NCBI RefSeq assembly: GCF_001547895.1
Contig: NZ_AP014627.1
Coordinates: forward strand, 1,801,501-1,865,500
Source of the DNA: Pseudomonas sp. Os17
GTDB taxonomy: Bacteria > Pseudomonadota > Gammaproteobacteria > Pseudomonadales > Pseudomonadaceae
Length of the DNA: 64,000 nt
Direction: 5' to 3'
Part shown: positions 43,585 to 63,178 of the stretch, piece after piece
How positions within the stretch are numbered: the first letter of the stretch is position 1
How the letters are laid out: every line of letters begins with the position of its first letter
Position numbers and translations under genes: made by a program
The notes under the pieces: model-generated
Databases searched by the model: none
What the model saw: only the letters and a program-made list of their open reading frames with translations
Told to the model about the DNA's origin: nothing

Positions 43585-44553
43585 ATGGCCGTGCAGGACC
43601 TGCTGTCCCAGGATGAGATCGACGCACTGTTGCATGGTGTCGACGACGGTCTGGTACAGACCGAACACGCTGCCGAACCCGGCAGTGTCAAAAGCTACGA
43701 CCTGACCAGCCAGGATCGCATCGTCCGCGGACGCATGCCGACCCTGGAAATGATCAACGAGCGTTTCGCCCGCTATACAAGGATCAGCATGTTCAACATG
43801 CTGCGTCGTTCCGCCGATGTGGCGGTAGGTGGCGTGCAGGTCATGAAGTTCGGTGAGTACGTGCACTCGCTGTACGTGCCCACCAGCCTCAACCTGGTGA
43901 AGATCAAGCCGCTGCGTGGCACGGCGCTGTTCATTCTCGACGCCAAGCTGGTGTTCAAGCTGGTGGACAACTTCTTCGGTGGCGACGGCCGTCACGCCAA
44001 GATCGAAGGGCGTGAATTCACCCCGACCGAGCTGCGGGTGGTGCGCATGGTGCTGGAGCAGGCCTTCGTCGATCTGAAGGAAGCCTGGCAGGCGATCATG
44101 CCGGTCAACTTCGAGTACATAAACTCCGAAGTGAACCCGGCCATGGCCAACATCGTCGGTCCCAGCGAGGCCATCGTGGTGTCGACCTTCCATATCGAAC
44201 TCGATGGCGGTGGCGGCGACCTGCACGTGACCATGCCGTACTCGATGATCGAGCCGATCCGGGAAATGCTCGACGCCGGCTTCCAGTCCGACCTGGACGA
44301 CCAGGACGAGCGCTGGAGCAAGGCCCTGCGCGAGGACGTGCTGGATGTGGCCGTACCGCTGAGCGCCACCGTGGCTCGTCGTCAGTTGCGCCTGCGGGAC
44401 ATCCTGCACATGCAGCCGGGCGATGTGATCCCGGTGGAGCTGCCGGAAGACATGATCATGCGCGCCAACGGCGTACCGTCGTTCAAGGTCAAGCTGGGTT
44501 CCCACAAGGGCAACCTGGCGCTGCAAGTGATCGAGCCGATCGAGCGCCGTTGA
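43585..44553 (+). CDS. fliM: Flagellar motor switch protein FliM
   Basis: A 322-residue C-ring protein. The N-terminal CheY-P docking peptide is present: LLSQDEIDALLHGVDDG at residues 6-22. The CheC-like middle domain runs about 45-230, with MFNMLRRSADVAVGGVQ. The C-terminal SpoA/FliN-like domain covers about 245-320 (DVAVPLSATVARRQLRLRDILHMQPGDVIPVE). It lies 9 bp after fliL. Confidence 0.97.
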   Translation: MAVQDLLSQDEIDALLHGVDDGLVQTEHAAEPGSVKSYDLTSQDRIVRGRMPTLEMINERFARYTRISMFNMLRRSADVAVGGVQVMKFGEYVHSLYVPTSLNLVKIKPLRGTALFILDAKLVFKLVDNFFGGDGRHAKIEGREFTPTELRVVRMVLEQAFVDLKEAWQAIMPVNFEYINSEVNPAMANIVGPSEAIVVSTFHIELDGGGGDLHVTMPYSMIEPIREMLDAGFQSDLDDQDERWSKALREDVLDVAVPLSATVARRQLRLRDILHMQPGDVIPVELPEDMIMRANGVPSFKVKLGSHKGNLALQVIEPIERR

Positions 44554-54020: not shown

Positions 54021-54130
54021 TTGCAGTATGTGCTCCATGCAGTCGTTGTGTGTTATGCCGAATTGATTGAATGGCGCGTTCAGGTGCTGGATGCGTTTAA
54101 GACTGCTTGGAGGTCGAATTGGACAAGAAC

Positions 54131-54502
54131 ATGAAAATCCTCATCGTTGATGACTTTTCAACGATGCGGCGGATCATAAAAAACCTGTTGCGTGATCTGG
54201 GTTTCACCAACACGGTCGAGGCCGACGATGGCACTACCGCCATTCCGGTACTCAACAGCGGGAGCATCGACTTTCTGGTAACGGACTGGAACATGCCGGG
54301 CATGACCGGGATCGACCTGCTGCGCCACGTGCGTGCCGATGAAAAGCTCAAGCACCTGCCGGTGTTGATGGTGACTGCGGAAGCCAAGCGCGAGCAGATC
54401 ATCGAAGCTGCCCAGGCCGGCGTTAACGGCTATGTAGTCAAACCATTCACGGCTCAGGCGTTGAAAGAGAAGATCGAAAAGATCTTCGAACGCATCGGTT
54501 GA
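54131..54502 (+). CDS. cheY: Chemotaxis response regulator CheY
   Basis: A 123-residue single receiver domain. Acidic pocket Asp7-Asp8 ([18 protein letters not shown]), phosphoacceptor Asp52 in [13 protein letters not shown], the Thr in [13 protein letters not shown] and the Lys in [11 protein letters not shown] are all present. CheY-P binds FliM (43585) and changes rotation. ATG 54131 is the family-typical start. A very strong GGAGGT site lies 6 bp before TTG 54119, which would add four residues (LDKN), so initiation at TTG is possible. Confidence 0.96.
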
Positions 54503-54532: not shown

Positions 54533-55321
54533 ATGGAGCATAACGAATCTTCACTGGGCGACTTTGAGTCGACCCTGAAAAAACATGCGCTGGAACTGGT
54601 CGAAAGCCTGGAAAAGGGCAAGTTCGGCGAAGCTGTGCAATTGATCCATGAGCTCAATCAGACCCGTGACCGCGGCCTGTATCAGGAAGTGGGCAAGCTC
54701 ACCCGCGAGTTGCATAGCGCGATCGTCAATTTCCAGATTGACCCGCACATGCCGCAAGCCGAGGAAGTTTCACAGATCACGGATGCCACTGAGCGCCTGT
54801 CCTATGTGGTCCGGCTCACGGAAGCCGCCGCCAACCGCACCATGGACCTGGTAGAGAGCAGCACCCCGCTGGTCAATGGCCTGAGCACTGAAGCCCAGGC
54901 CCTGAGCGCAGATTGGGGACGCTTCATGCGGCGCGAGGTCGGTGCTGAAGAGTTTCGCGAACTGGCGCGCCGGGTCGACAGTTTCCTGACGCGCAGCGAG
55001 CAGGAAACCCGCACCGTTTCCGGCCACCTTAACGACATTCTGCTGGCGCAGGATTACCAGGACCTGACCGGTCAGGTGATCAAGCGTGTGACCCAGTTGG
55101 TCACTGAAGTCGAAAGCAATCTGCTCAAACTTGTCTTGATGGCCAGCCAGGTCGATCGCTTCGCCGGTATCGAACATGACCGTGAATCGATCCTCGCGGA
55201 AAAAGATCCGCAAAAACATCTCGCCAAGGGTGAAGGTCCGCAGATTCATGCCGATAAACGGGAAGACGTTATGTCCGGTCAGGACGATGTAGACGATTTG
55301 CTTTCCAGCCTTGGATTCTAG
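54533..55321 (+). CDS. cheZ: Chemotaxis phosphatase CheZ
   Basis: A 262-residue helical phosphatase for CheY-P. The long hairpin helix contains LNDILLAQDYQDLTGQVIKRVTQLV near residue 168, with the catalytic Gln in DYQDLTGQ. The C-terminal CheY-binding helix DDVDDLLSSLGF is joined by a flexible, charged linker (about residues 215-250). GGGGGAGCT precedes the ATG. It lies between cheY and cheA. Confidence 0.96.
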   Translation: MEHNESSLGDFESTLKKHALELVESLEKGKFGEAVQLIHELNQTRDRGLYQEVGKLTRELHSAIVNFQIDPHMPQAEEVSQITDATERLSYVVRLTEAAANRTMDLVESSTPLVNGLSTEAQALSADWGRFMRREVGAEEFRELARRVDSFLTRSEQETRTVSGHLNDILLAQDYQDLTGQVIKRVTQLVTEVESNLLKLVLMASQVDRFAGIEHDRESILAEKDPQKHLAKGEGPQIHADKREDVMSGQDDVDDLLSSLGF

Positions 55322-55333
55322 GAGCACCCATTA

Positions 55334-57607
55334 ATGAGCTTCGGCGCCGATGAAGAGATCCTTCAGGATTTCCTGGTTGAGGCCGGCGAGATTCTAGAGC
55401 AACTGTCCGAACAACTGGTCGAGCTGGAAAGCCGACCGGACGATGCGGACCTGCTCAATGCAATTTTTCGCGGTTTTCACACTGTTAAAGGGGGCGCCGG
55501 CTTCCTCCAGCTCAATGAGCTGGTGGAGTGCTGCCACATCGCCGAGAACGTCTTCGACATCCTGCGCAAGGGTGAGCGACGGGTCGATTCGGAGCTGATG
55601 GACGTGGTGCTCGAGGCGCTGGACGCGGTGAACGGCATGTTCAGCCAGGTCCGTGAGCGCACCGAAATCACTGCTGCGACACCGGAACTGCTGGCCGCGT
55701 TGGCGCGTCTGGCCGAGCCTGCCGGTGCCGAACCTGCAGCGCCGGCGGTCGAAGAAGTGGCCGAAGTCGCTGCCGAGCCTGAGCCCGAGGCTGAGGCCCC
55801 ATCAGGGGATATCACCGATAACGAATTCGAACTCTTGCTCGACTCGCTGAATGCCGCCAAGGCCGACGCCGAGGCTGCGCCTGCTGCCGCACCGGTGGCC
55901 GAGGGCGAGCCTGCCAGCGATGAGATCACCGATGCCGAGTTCGAGTCCCTGCTGGACCAGCTGCATGGCAAGGGGCAGTTCGCTCCCGATGCCGTAGCTC
56001 CCGCAGCGCCTGCTGCTGCCGCTGGTGCTGCCGCGGCTGGCGACGAAATCACCGATGACGAATTTGAAGCCCTGTTGGACCAGTTGCATGGCAAGGGCAA
56101 CTTTGCCGTGGACGCACTGGAGTCAGCAGTGGCCGCGGTGCCTGCCGCGCAGGCGCCCAGCGCCGCAGCAGCCGGTAGCGACCTGATCACCGATCACGAA
56201 TTCGAATCCCTGCTGGATGAGCTGCACGGCAAGGGCAAGTTCTCTGAGGCCCCGGGTGCGGCGAAACCTGCAGCGGCAGTTGCCCCTGCTCCGGCTGCAG
56301 CAACCAGCGCCGCCGTCGCCAAACCCGTGGCCAAGAAGCCCGAAGCCAAGGCCGAAGCGCCGAAACCGGCTGCGGCTGCAGCGCCGGCACCGGCTCGTGC
56401 CGCAGCGGCGCCGCCAGCGGAAAAACCGGCCAGCGAAGCGGAAACCACGGTGCGGGTCGATACCGCGCGCCTGGACGAAATCATGAACATGGTCGGCGAG
56501 CTGGTGCTGGTGCGTAACCGTCTGGTGCGCCTGGGCCTGAACAGTGGCGACGAAGCCATGTCCAAGGCGGTGTCGAACCTGGACGTGGTGACTGCCGACC
56601 TGCAGACCGCGGTGATGAAGACCCGCATGCAGCCGATCAAGAAGGTGTTCGGGCGCTTCCCGCGTCTGGTTCGCGACCTGGCCCGGCAGCTCAAGAAAGA
56701 GATCAACCTGGAACTGGTGGGGGAAGAAACCGACCTCGACAAGAACCTGGTAGAGGCCCTGGCCGACCCGCTGGTGCACTTGGTGCGCAACGCGGTGGAC
56801 CACGGCATCGAATCGCCGGAAGAGCGCGAAGCCTCGGGCAAGGCCCGTGGCGGCAAAGTGGTGCTGGCGGCGGAGCAGGAAGGTGACCACATCCTCCTGT
56901 CGATTTCCGACGACGGCAAGGGCATGGACCCCAACGTTCTGCGAGCCATTGCCGTCAAGCGCGGCGTGATGGACAAGGACGCCGCCGACCGCCTGAGCGA
57001 CACCGAGTGCTACAACCTGATCTTCGCCCCGGGCTTCTCCACCAAGACCGAGATCTCCGACGTCTCCGGCCGGGGCGTGGGCATGGACGTGGTGAAGACC
57101 AAGATTTCCCAGCTCAATGGCTCGATCAACATCTACTCGACCAAGGGCCAGGGTTCGAAGATCGTCATCAAGGTGCCGTTGACCCTGGCGATCATGCCGA
57201 CCCTGATGGTGATGCTGGGCAACCAGGCGTTCGCCTTCCCGCTGGTCAACGTCAACGAAATCTTCCACCTCGACCTGTCCCGCACCAATGTGGTGGACGG
57301 CCAGGAAGTGGTGATCGTGCGTGACAAGGCATTGCCCCTGTTCTACCTCAAGCGCTGGCTGGTCAGTTCCGCCGCTCATGAAGAGCAGCGTGAAGGCCAC
57401 GTAGTGATCCTTTCGGTGGGCACCCAGCGGATCGGCTTTGTCGTCGATCAGTTGGTGGGCCAGGAAGAAGTGGTCATCAAGCCCTTGGGCAAAATGCTTC
57501 AGGGAACCCCAGGCATGTCCGGCGCCACCATTACCGGTGACGGCCGCATCGCTCTGATTCTCGATGTTCCGAGCATGCTCAAGCGTTACGCCGCACGGCG
57601 TATTTGA
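55334..57607 (+). CDS. cheA: Chemotaxis histidine kinase CheA with repeat-containing linker
   Basis: A 757-residue kinase. The P1 Hpt domain has His49 in [14 protein letters not shown]. Residues of about 130-370 are Ala/Pro/Glu-rich and contain four copies of an acidic-Leu motif, ITDxEFExLLDxLHGKGxF, starting at residues 160, 198, 239 and 285 (the first is degenerate at its end). I see no ordinary P2 CheY-binding domain. P3 dimerisation begins near 375 ([23 protein letters not shown]). The P4 ATPase has [13 protein letters not shown] and DDGKGMD. P5 is the CheW-like regulatory domain (about 610-757), ending with [21 protein letters not shown]. Confidence 0.96.
55811..56242 (+). repeat. Four tandem motif repeats within the CheA linker
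   Basis: Coding repeats of about 57 bp start at 55811, 55925, 56048 and 56186, with start-to-start distances of 114, 123 and 138 bp. Each encodes ITDxEFExLLDxL; copies 2-4 continue with HGKGxF. The spacers are Ala/Pro-rich. Copies 2-4 differ by conservative changes at the protein level and by many silent changes in DNA, which suggests selection on the peptide and not a recent DNA duplication. Confidence 0.9.
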
Positions 57608-60447: not shown

Positions 60448-61236
60448 ATGAGAGTCTGGGCAGTCGCCAATCAAAAGGGTGGTGTTGGTAAAACCACCAG
60501 TTCCATCGCTTTAGCCGGCTTGCTGGCCGAGGCGGGCAAGCGCGTGGTTGTGGTCGATCTCGACCCCCACGGTTCCATGACCAGCTACTTTGGCTACGAC
60601 CCGGACAGCCTGGAGCACAGCAGCTACGATCTGTTCCTGCACAAGGGCAACGTGCCCCAGGACCTGCCGGGCCAGCTGCTGCTGGGCACCAGCCATGAAC
60701 ACATTTCCCTGTTGCCGTCGAGCACCGCCCTGGCCACCCTCGAGCGCCAGTCGCCGGGGCAGAGCGGCCTGGGCCTGGTGATCGCCAAGAGCCTGGCGCA
60801 GCTGTGGCAGGATTTCGACTATGCGGTCATCGACAGCCCGCCGTTGCTCGGCGTGTTGATGGTCAACGCCCTGGCGGCCAGCCAGCAGTTGGTGATCCCG
60901 GTGCAGACCGAACACCTGGCGGTCAAGGGCCTGGAACGCATGGTCAACACCCTGGCGATGGTCAACCGCTCGCGCAAGCAGCCACTGCCGTTCACCATTG
61001 TGCCGACCCTGTTCGATCGACGGACCCAGGCGTCCCTGGGCACGCTGCGGATCCTGCGGGACAAGTTTCCCGACGAAATCTGGCAAGGCTACATCCCGGT
61101 GGATACCCGCCTGCGGGACGCCAGCCGGGCAGGGGTCACTCCTTCCCAGTTCGATGGCAAGAGTCGCGGCGTACTGGCCTACAAGGCCTTGCTCAAGCAC
61201 TTGCTGGCCCAGCAGCTCGTGGCGCAGGTGGCTTGA
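60448..61236 (+). CDS. parC: ParA-family ATPase ParC, chemotaxis array positioning
   Basis: A 262-residue ATPase with deviant Walker A VANQKGGVGKTTSSIALAGLL at residues 5-25 and VVVVDLDPHGSMTSYFG. The location between motD and a CheW-domain protein in a polar-flagellate che locus is the place of ParC, which in Vibrio and Pseudomonas places chemotaxis arrays at the cell pole and divides them between daughters. GGAGG lies 9 bp before the ATG. parP follows after a 72-bp gap. Confidence 0.87.
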   Translation: MRVWAVANQKGGVGKTTSSIALAGLLAEAGKRVVVVDLDPHGSMTSYFGYDPDSLEHSSYDLFLHKGNVPQDLPGQLLLGTSHEHISLLPSSTALATLERQSPGQSGLGLVIAKSLAQLWQDFDYAVIDSPPLLGVLMVNALAASQQLVIPVQTEHLAVKGLERMVNTLAMVNRSRKQPLPFTIVPTLFDRRTQASLGTLRILRDKFPDEIWQGYIPVDTRLRDASRAGVTPSQFDGKSRGVLAYKALLKHLLAQQLVAQVA

Positions 61237-61308: not shown

Positions 61309-62223
61309 GTGGGTATCCTTATGAACCGTCCTCTGGATATCAAGAGCCGGCCCCAACTGGCGCTGCAGTCGTACCTGGACGCTTTGCTGCAGGACGCCAC
61401 CGAAGAAGAACTGGCTCCGGAGCCTGCCGTTGCGGTTGCCGTCGAGGTCACGCCGCCAGCTCCGCTGGTCACGCCCGAGGCCGGCACTGAAGTGTTGGAC
61501 GAGTTCCAGGCAGCAGTGCTGGAAGAGCAGGCGCGGGATGCGCTGATTCAGCAGCAGGCGGCTCCCGTCGCCCGGGTGGCGGAGTCGATGCCGGCGCCGG
61601 CCATTCTGGAAGCACCGCCGCCGGTGCTGACTTCGATTTCCCCCGTGGTGCCGATGCTTCAGGCGCTGGTGCCGCCGGTGGTCGAAGTGCACCTGCCACC
61701 CAGCAATACACCGCCTCCGGTCACCGGCAGCGACCGTCCCAGCTGGGCGGCAGAGCCTTTCGAATGCCTGTTGTTCGATGTCGCCGGGCTGACCCTGGCG
61801 GTGCCGCTGGTGTGCCTGGGGTCGATCTATTCTTTGGCAGGGCAGGAACTGACGCCGCTGTTCGGTCAGCCGGAGTGGTTCCTCGGTATCCTGCCGAGCC
61901 AGGCCGGTAACCTGAAAGTGCTGGATACCGCCCGTTGGGTCATGCCGGATCGTTACCGTGATGATTTCCGCCAGGGCCTGCAGTACGTGATCTCGGTCCA
62001 GGGCTATGAGTGGGGGTTGGCGGTGCATCAGGTCAGCCGTTCGTTGCGCCTGGACCCCAACGAAATCAAGTGGCGCAGTCATCGTGGCCAACGCCCGTGG
62101 CTCGCCGGCACCGTGATCGAACACATGTGCGCCTTGCTCGACGTGGCCGAACTGGCGGAGTTGATCGCCACCGGTGGTGCCAAGCAGCTGGCTATCAGTC
62201 AAGCGGCCCACAAGCCGAAGTGA
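61309..62223 (+). CDS. parP: CheW-domain protein ParP
   Basis: A 304-residue protein. Residues of about 25-140 are rich in Glu, Pro, Ala and Val and are probably disordered. From about residue 145 a CheW-like/AIF domain follows: FECLLFDVAGLTLAVPLVCLGSIYSL, then GQPEWFLGILPSQAGNLKVLDTARWVM. Family ParP links ParC to CheA and receptors and keeps the array polar. GTG 61309 has GAGG 7 bp upstream and is preferred; ATG 61321 is in frame. cheW follows. Confidence 0.85.
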   Translation: MGILMNRPLDIKSRPQLALQSYLDALLQDATEEELAPEPAVAVAVEVTPPAPLVTPEAGTEVLDEFQAAVLEEQARDALIQQQAAPVARVAESMPAPAILEAPPPVLTSISPVVPMLQALVPPVVEVHLPPSNTPPPVTGSDRPSWAAEPFECLLFDVAGLTLAVPLVCLGSIYSLAGQELTPLFGQPEWFLGILPSQAGNLKVLDTARWVMPDRYRDDFRQGLQYVISVQGYEWGLAVHQVSRSLRLDPNEIKWRSHRGQRPWLAGTVIEHMCALLDVAELAELIATGGAKQLAISQAAHKPK

Positions 62224-62785: not shown

Positions 62786-63178
62786 TTGATCCTCGAGGTA
62801 GCGGTGATTGTCCTGGCGATCCTCTGGGTCGCCACTGTGGCGCTGTTTCTGTCGTACACCCGCAATCAGCGGCAGATCGCCGCCCAGCAAGCCGAAGGCG
62901 ATGCTGTGCGCGATCAGCGGATCAAGGAGCTGGCCAAGCGTGTCGACCATTACCAGAACGGTACGGTGCGCATGGGCGAGGATCTGCATGAACTGCGGGC
63001 GGTGGTGGCGCCGTTGCCGGACAAACTGGCCCAGCTGGAGCAGCGCGACCCCTCCAGCCTGTCCTTCGCCCAGGCCGCGCGCCTGGTGGGCATGGGTGCC
63101 AGCGTCGACGAACTGACCCAGTCCTGCGGCCTGACCCAGGCCGAGGCGGAACTGGTCAGCAAGCTGCACAAAGGTTGA
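62786..63178 (+). CDS. DUF2802 membrane-anchored coiled-coil protein
   Basis: A 130-residue protein starting at TTG directly after the cheW stop. TM at about residues 3-24 (LEVAVIVLAILWVATVALFLSYTR). A coiled-coil follows (about 25-90: QIAAQQAEGDAVRDQRIKELAKRVDHY). The C-terminus (SFAQAARLVGMGASVDELTQSCGLTQAEAELVSKLHKG) is the DUF2802 helix-turn-helix-like motif. Conserved after cheW in Pseudomonas, function unknown; a membrane or pole-related role is only inferred from position. Confidence 0.85.
   Translation: MILEVAVIVLAILWVATVALFLSYTRNQRQIAAQQAEGDAVRDQRIKELAKRVDHYQNGTVRMGEDLHELRAVVAPLPDKLAQLEQRDPSSLSFAQAARLVGMGASVDELTQSCGLTQAEAELVSKLHKG

Follow-up and report, generated by a model that had tools for sequence, protein, structure and literature searches.

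The chemotaxis locus and the CheA linker

The window, by which we mean the whole stretch of 64,000 nucleotides that was analysed, holds a flagellar cluster with cheY, cheZ, cheA and cheB, a gene order of the F6-type setting. We take its CheA to belong to the F6 class, a label that comes from gene order and literature. The motif LVNVNEI at residues 637-643 of this CheA conflicts with the label, since the figure legend of one paper links this motif to the F7 class. The features on which the analysis is built are the following.

fliM, 43585-44553, plus strand: N-terminal peptide DLLSQDEIDALLHG, used as comparison motif
cheY, 54107-54502, plus strand: proposed partner of the CheA repeats (open reading frame list; Pfam)
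cheZ, 54533-55321, plus strand: C-terminal tail DDVDDLLSSLGF (open reading frame list; Pfam; tails of 84 CheZ compared)
cheA, 55334-57607, plus strand: 757 residues, P1, a long linker devoid of P2, then P3, P4 and P5 (open reading frame list; Pfam)
CheA repeat 1, 55805-55858, plus strand: residues 158-175, divergent, without HGKGxF tail; helix at 162-180 in a low-confidence model
CheA repeat 2, 55919-55972, plus strand: residues 196-213; dN/dS 0.021 for residues 196-216
CheA repeat 3, 56042-56095, plus strand: residues 237-254; dN/dS 0.058 for residues 237-257; sub-threshold SHOCT match
CheA repeat 4, 56180-56233, plus strand: residues 283-300; dN/dS 0.112 for residues 283-303
ParC-like ParA ATPase, 60448-61236, plus strand (open reading frame list; Pfam; alignment)
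ParP-like protein with C-terminal CheW-like domain, 61309-62223, plus strand: rival candidate partner of the repeats (open reading frame list; Pfam; alignment)

The same chemotaxis cluster also encodes a DUF2802 protein (62786-63178), directly 3' of cheW.

In the window CheA, Pfam recognised Hpt (residues 8-99), H-kinase_dim (residues 371-430), HATPase_c and CheW, and returned neither a P2 nor a CheY-binding match even at E<=1, which bears out an earlier note on this DNA in describing a CheA without an ordinary P2. P1 and P3 are joined by a linker of about 270 residues that is rich in Ala and Pro apart from four copies of I-T-x-x-E-F-E-x-L-L-D-x-L. The earlier note had read four copies of ITDxEFExLLDxL(HGKGxF) within 55811-56242; the four repeats are there, and the span opens at the I of repeat 1 and closes at the F of repeat 4, but the HGKGxF tail is absent from the divergent repeat 1. 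The latter is identical to each of the other repeats at 10/18 positions, and repeats 2-4 are identical among themselves at 14-16/18.

Conservation of the repeats and selection

The repeat pattern does not arise by chance, since a composition-shuffled linker would yield it 0.0006 times on average, and the 23,240 residues that lie beyond the first 450 of 86 CheA proteins contain it once. A strict form of the pattern, which undercounts the repeats, was applied to the nearest 120 of 7,984 homologues and found four times in 102 proteins, three times in 17 and twice in 1. The closest named homologues put the source near P. protegens and P. chlororaphis. A comparison of linkers across Pseudomonas CheA, suggested earlier as a check, upholds the array: with a looser pattern all 80 named Pseudomonas loci, which ranked highest among 551 relatives, carry four copies. 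Among at least 120 homologues listed by a profile search aimed at more distant relatives, all names given were Pseudomonas or genera split off from it.

Selection was analysed over 81 Pseudomonas sequences, with every second one entering the pairwise counts. The repeats have 83-95% identity, no gap cells and a dN/dS of 0.02-0.11, compared to 51-61% identity, 7-26% gap cells and a dN/dS of 0.16-0.28 for the spacers between them; P1 and P3 of the same sequences have a dN/dS of 0.026 and 0.041, respectively. Selection on the peptides is therefore much stronger than on the spacers: the repeats are under strong purifying selection and the spacers drift. The array is old rather than the product of a recent duplication, because codons for the same residue often differ between repeats and each position retains its own residues across Pseudomonas species. 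Recent duplication or gene conversion was accordingly rejected, repeats 2-4 sharing the same codon at just 9-10 of the 14-16 places where they have the same residue.

Distribution of the repeats across the class

CheA proteins were sought in the order (56 genomes, 40 with a match at E<=1e-60), in the class (185 genomes, 82 with a match at E<=1e-90) and in a sample of the phylum (200 genomes, 24 matches at E<=1e-105, all 24 inside the class). From the order and class matches 100 CheA regions were chosen, and F6-type was defined as at least 470 BLAST bits to the window CheA, a cut-off set after the data had been seen. It is passed by 91 CheA, 86 of which have an open reading frame of more than 560 residues (at least 650 in 81 of these); L186, L232, L234, L235 and L236 were left out as short or split. 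In L186, one in-frame stop within a repeat, real or an assembly error, interrupts cheA.

The repeats are not peculiar to Pseudomonas and are class-wide within this sample. One to five copies are present in 85/86 F6-type CheA (one copy in 8, two in 35, three in 32, four in 9, five in 1), and the single protein with a count of zero, L220, holds two degenerate copies. Nine CheA scored below the cut-off; among these L221 has one strict copy, L230 a variant and seven have none, so that without the score cut a strict copy is found in 86/95 CheA. The phylum search added 14 newly fetched CheA loci, all with 2-4 copies, the 2 of L295 coming from a locus that runs off its contig. One family accounts for L299, L301 and L302, which have three copies each, and inspection of the linkers of L299 and L301 by eye revealed no folded insert. 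The CheA of L198, with an open reading frame of 1073 residues and five repeats, has the longest linker seen; the maximum of 560 residues among 53 measured linkers is presumably its own. In L204 the gene order is cheZ-cheY-cheA rather than cheY-cheZ-cheA.

Absence of a P2 domain

A Pfam search of the N-terminal 440 residues of 87 F6-type CheA gave no P2 or CheY-binding match at E<=0.01 (0/87), with Hpt found in 85 and H-kinase_dim in 84 of the same proteins. The same library detects PF09078 in L228 and L237, two CheZ-linked CheA without any repeat, and is thus able to see a P2-type domain; the other Pfam P2 model is PF07194. A P2 too diverged for Pfam was considered and rejected, as a profile comparison of the 87 N-terminal parts with L228 aligned the P2 stretch to the repeats only at low confidence digits. 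A sequence search of the PDB with the CheA linker returned no match at E<=10.

Like the P2/CheY-binding domain (Pfam P2; PF09078), the repeats sit between P1 and P3, and the job proposed for them would be the same, CheY docking beside P1. P2 is, however, one folded domain, whereas the repeats are 1-5 short peptides in a low-complexity tether. Moreover, a Pfam P2 and repeats are both missing from five of the nine lower-scoring CheA (L224-L227 and L229). By eye, the linkers of L227 and L229 resemble a diverged folded domain and those of L224 and L226 do not; in L225 no linker was found. Since some CheA appear to do without either, the argument from P2 absence is weakened and a substitute need not be required. 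The portion of PMC10782961 available to us reports from a profile search that over half of CheA are without P2, that AlphaFold shows an unstructured stretch in its place and that P2 may simply be dispensable; a term search within that portion gave no mention of the repeats or of ParP.

In the accessible part of PMC11978298, the CheA of P. putida is treated as having a CheY-binding P2 by Pfam. The CheA of P. putida strain 31800 (L087 9001-11232) gave no P2 or CheY-binding match, and the domain-deletion construct of that paper, made in a different strain, may have removed the repeat linker.

Likeness to the CheY-binding peptides of FliM and CheZ

The logo of 219 repeats, partly imposed by the search pattern, reads [DE]-I-[TS]-[DE]-[DE]-E-F-[ED]-A-L-L-D-x-L-H-G-K-G. 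FliM of the window has the peptide QDEIDALLHG at residues 9-18, and LxQ[DE]EID[AT]LL recurs at the N-terminus of 30/30 FliM (the best 30 of 42 matches). The C-terminal tail of CheZ is likewise a CheY-binding peptide. After a PSSM scan of FliM N-termini had been abandoned as too strict, with the peptide mis-registered, likeness was scored with BLOSUM62. Repeat 3 and the FliM peptide score 31, a value reached by 45/5,000 shuffles and by 20/8,142 window 25-mers (taken from open reading frames of at least 150 residues in six frames, with cheA excluded and FliM's own 25-mers included). The resemblance to FliM proposed in the earlier note is therefore above chance but modest, not overwhelming. The looser resemblance to the CheZ tail VDDLLSSLGF that was proposed beside it did not stand, as 1,605/5,000 shuffles reach its score: the tail DDVDDLLSSLGF is acidic-hydrophobic as the repeats are, yet the likeness is at chance level.

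FliM and the repeats share [LI][ST]x[DE]E[IF][DE]ALL, with hydrophobic and acidic residues at reported CheY-contact positions. The register pairs I of the repeat with FliM L6, D with Q8, F with I11, E with D12, the two L with L14 and L15, and D with residue 16, and all seven FliM positions are among the CheY contacts tabulated in the part of PMC3774744 at hand, where a structure underlies the E. coli column and a docked model the Vibrio column. The reported contact positions are thus mostly matched in the repeats, in a comparison that excludes the upstream FliM contacts D3 and S4. At places where the search pattern was open or loose, D/E is present at the D12 place in 216/219 repeats and D/N/H at the 16 place in 215/219. 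At the Q8 place D/E is found in 216/219 repeats and Q in 1/219. In Caulobacter, according to an excerpt of PMC5677366, the CheY-like protein CleA no longer binds FliM in a two-hybrid assay when FliM carries the change ID57WA; this change falls at the 11/12 places of the register. The two peptides differ in that FliM has a single copy at its N-terminus, whereas the CheA motif is mostly in tandem, and in that I11 is replaced by F and Q8 by D/E in the CheA motif, which also carries a conserved xLHGxG tail. At the corresponding place FliM has nothing to match the HG(K)G that follows the repeat helix and is conserved for no evident reason.

Structure prediction

Two AlphaFold runs were made, both with 19 Pseudomonas alignment rows. 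For residues 1-310 of CheA alone the pTM was 0.24, P1 itself being poorly modelled; the model has helices at 162-180, 200-210, 241-251 and 287-297 with a block pLDDT of 60-82, in a linker mostly below 50. A folded alpha/beta P2 domain was looked for, and only isolated helices were seen in the low-confidence linker of this poor model. In the second run CheY, CheZ and CheA(1-310) were modelled as a single chain with stops read as Gly (pTM 0.24; CheY blocks at pLDDT 54-72). The repeats had a pLDDT of 51-65 in this chain compared to 60-82 in CheA alone, both models being poor. No docking signal was obtained from the fused chain, and the CheZ tail, its intended positive control, was likewise of low confidence (35-36). 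Because the control failed in this way and no coordinates were available, the fused run says nothing for or against docking.

The repeats and the ParC/ParP system

As its alternative, the earlier note had named docking of ParP or ParC, as by the LID of Vibrio CheA. According to the parts of PMC5706961 and PMC7534058 available to us, the LID of CheA lies after the regulator dock and before P3, is bound by the CheW-like domain of ParP and occurs only alongside ParC/ParP. The repeats, if they were a LID, would bind the CheW-like (AIF) domain of ParP and so link both CheA and the array to polar ParC. Their location before P3 and after the P1/P2 position agrees with that description, and parC and parP do lie in the same window cluster as cheA, as had been pointed out. 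ParC was found in 79/80 and ParP in 78/80 named Pseudomonas cheA loci, those missing one or both being two short stretches. Moreover, E-F-x-x-L-L is the only clearly conserved element of the linker, present in 53/53 ParP-bearing linkers (53 of 56 used; 3 dropped because their bounds were missing). When a separate LID motif was sought in these 53/56 linkers by masking the repeats, the commonest leftover k-mer occurred in 12/53, and the top 10 were 7 degenerate repeats and 3 Lys- or Glu-rich strings, so this candidate was discarded. With no other clearly conserved element in these linkers, a LID would have to coincide at least partly with the repeats or else show poor conservation. Copy number also points weakly this way, with a mean of 1.9 in 7 of 9 genomes without ParC/ParP (G009 and G225 excluded, L220 entered as 0) compared to 2.7 in 56 ParP-bearing CheA (p = 0.067).

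Against this, the LID is said to need ParC/ParP, yet repeats, or degenerate versions of them, persist in nine genomes in which neither ParC nor ParP was detected. The search for ParP by profile covered 22 genomes and that for ParC 21, each with G020 as positive control; the other genomes were mostly chosen for an apparent absence of ParP near cheA, and loci at contig ends were mostly not followed. The nine genomes (G018, G009, G056, G064, G076, G223, G225, G079 and G208) belong to eight families, are 91-100% complete and have, in this order, 2, 2, 4, 2, 1, 1, at least 1 (frame interrupted), 2 degenerate and 3 repeats. Best ParC scores split into 295-425 bits and at most 207 bits, with the nine genomes at 184-207; their best ParP matches reach at most 36 bits, the level of CheW, compared to about 52-61 bits for the weakest ParP beside a ParC. 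A very diverged ParP with a CheW-level score is possible in these genomes, and in G009 a distant ParA of 100 bits adjoins cheA. The repeats are not tied to the presence of ParC/ParP. They share with the LID the linker position before P3 and the usual company of ParC/ParP in the same cluster, and differ from it, as compared by description and not by sequence, in that the LID is reported as restricted to ParC/ParP species. Finally, a LID would leave the pattern of FliM contacts unexplained. Binding of ParP alone is thus weakened as a role for the repeats, and from sequence we consider it unlikely.

Three further observations concern the Par proteins. In G066, ParC and a weak ParP-like match adjoin a second CheA (C37:6446-7663), not the repeat-bearing CheA at C37:148040. 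A passage of PMC12410967 describes P. aeruginosa as without ParC/ParP-related genes, which contrasts with the counts given above for named Pseudomonas loci, PAO1 not being among them. The N-terminus of the window ParP has a conserved amphipathic peptide of YLDALL type (Y22, L26 and L27 in at least 90% of 22), which faintly resembles the CheA repeats and has ParC as its presumed partner.

Possible structural and dual roles

The repeats might instead be structural, as SHOCT-like helices that self-associate or contact P1 or P4 to regulate the kinase. The SHOCT consensus starts with an ITDEEFE-like helix. SHOCT matches occur at E<=0.01 in 66/87 CheA (best E 3.5e-10; their location on the repeats is assumed from the window), SHOCT is precomputed as a domain in many CheA homologues, and the low-confidence model has the repeats as isolated helices. 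Yet the window match (PF09851) scores 21.9 bits, under the 27-bit cut-off, and covers 14 residues (238-251), for which reason a SHOCT domain was rejected in the window CheA; furthermore, SHOCT is named for a C-terminal position, and the CheA repeats lie at residues 158-300 of 757. Such a role therefore strikes us as improbable. The SHOCT annotation in many CheA is probably a mis-annotation through the shared ITDEEFE helix start, the match in the window being repeat 3.

A dual use, with some copies engaged by CheY and one or several (the last, for instance) by ParP as well, and with copy number having risen alongside ParP, would suit the variation from 1 to 5 copies, the weak trend to fewer copies without ParP, and the dissimilarity of repeat 1 to repeats 2-4 with own residues held at each position among Pseudomonas, but seems quite improbable because that trend is not significant (p = 0.067) and no position-specific residue is linked to the presence of ParP.

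A proposed role in CheY docking

Taken together, these results favour CheY docking over binding of ParP alone, dual use and a structural role: the four repeats are probably, if by no means certainly, short linear motifs that dock CheY in place of the missing P2. CheY docking is the best-supported role because a Pfam P2 is absent from 87/87 F6-type CheA, repeats are present in 85/86, the FliM contacts are matched and the repeats are retained without ParC/ParP. Against it speak the modest likeness to FliM, the chance-level likeness to the CheZ tail, the mismatch at Q8 and the HG(K)G without a FliM counterpart. The earlier proposal of a multivalent CheY dock in place of P2 is partly supported: the lack of a Pfam P2, the array and the match at most FliM contact positions are shown, and we infer that the repeats bind CheY, which face they use, how phosphotransfer is affected and what copy number does.

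In the mechanism that we propose, each repeat would be an unfolded peptide that forms one short amphipathic helix on CheY, at the alpha4-beta5-alpha5 surface, the face that holds the FliM N-terminus. Docked CheY, and perhaps also the receiver of CheB, would be raised in local concentration beside phospho-P1, and several copies on a long Ala/Pro-rich tether would add avidity and retain a reservoir of CheY at the polar array. The FliM peptide prefers phosphorylated CheY, and this would make the repeats not ideal as a dock for the substrate. Extended further, an idea toward which we lean slightly less than away, the whole CheA class might dispense with P2 and dock CheY via tandem FliM-mimicking peptides; kinase and motor would then compete for the same CheY face, copy number (1-5) would tune the CheY or CheY-P held at the polar array, and ParP may share the tether.

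How CheA without P2 hold CheY is an open question, to which a conserved, countable motif offers a concrete, testable answer for one large class. Such a motif would also separate the CheY-docking from the ParP-binding role of the linker and would account for the co-localisation of CheY and CheA in Pseudomonas without P2. A search of titles and abstract openings in the open-access literature found no description of the CheA repeats, which the LID papers might contain.

On the side of CheY, nine FliM-facing positions were viewed in the window protein; eight are the same as in E. coli and the ninth has R in place of K. Over 85 CheY, I95, A99, Y106 and K119 are present in 85/85 and K91, V108 and K122 in at least 80; position 92 is R in 73/85 and K in 12, and position 90 is A in only 48. 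The face is thus largely kept, but FliM and CheZ demand it as well. The polar signals of CheA-CFP and CheY-EYFP coincide in P. aeruginosa, as stated in a section of PMC12410967, which fits a CheA array that holds CheY, by the repeats or by something else. The portion of PMC7184735 available to us reports three P2-facing residues at which the CheY serving F6 is unlike the CheY recruited to F7, a difference that fits a different dock.
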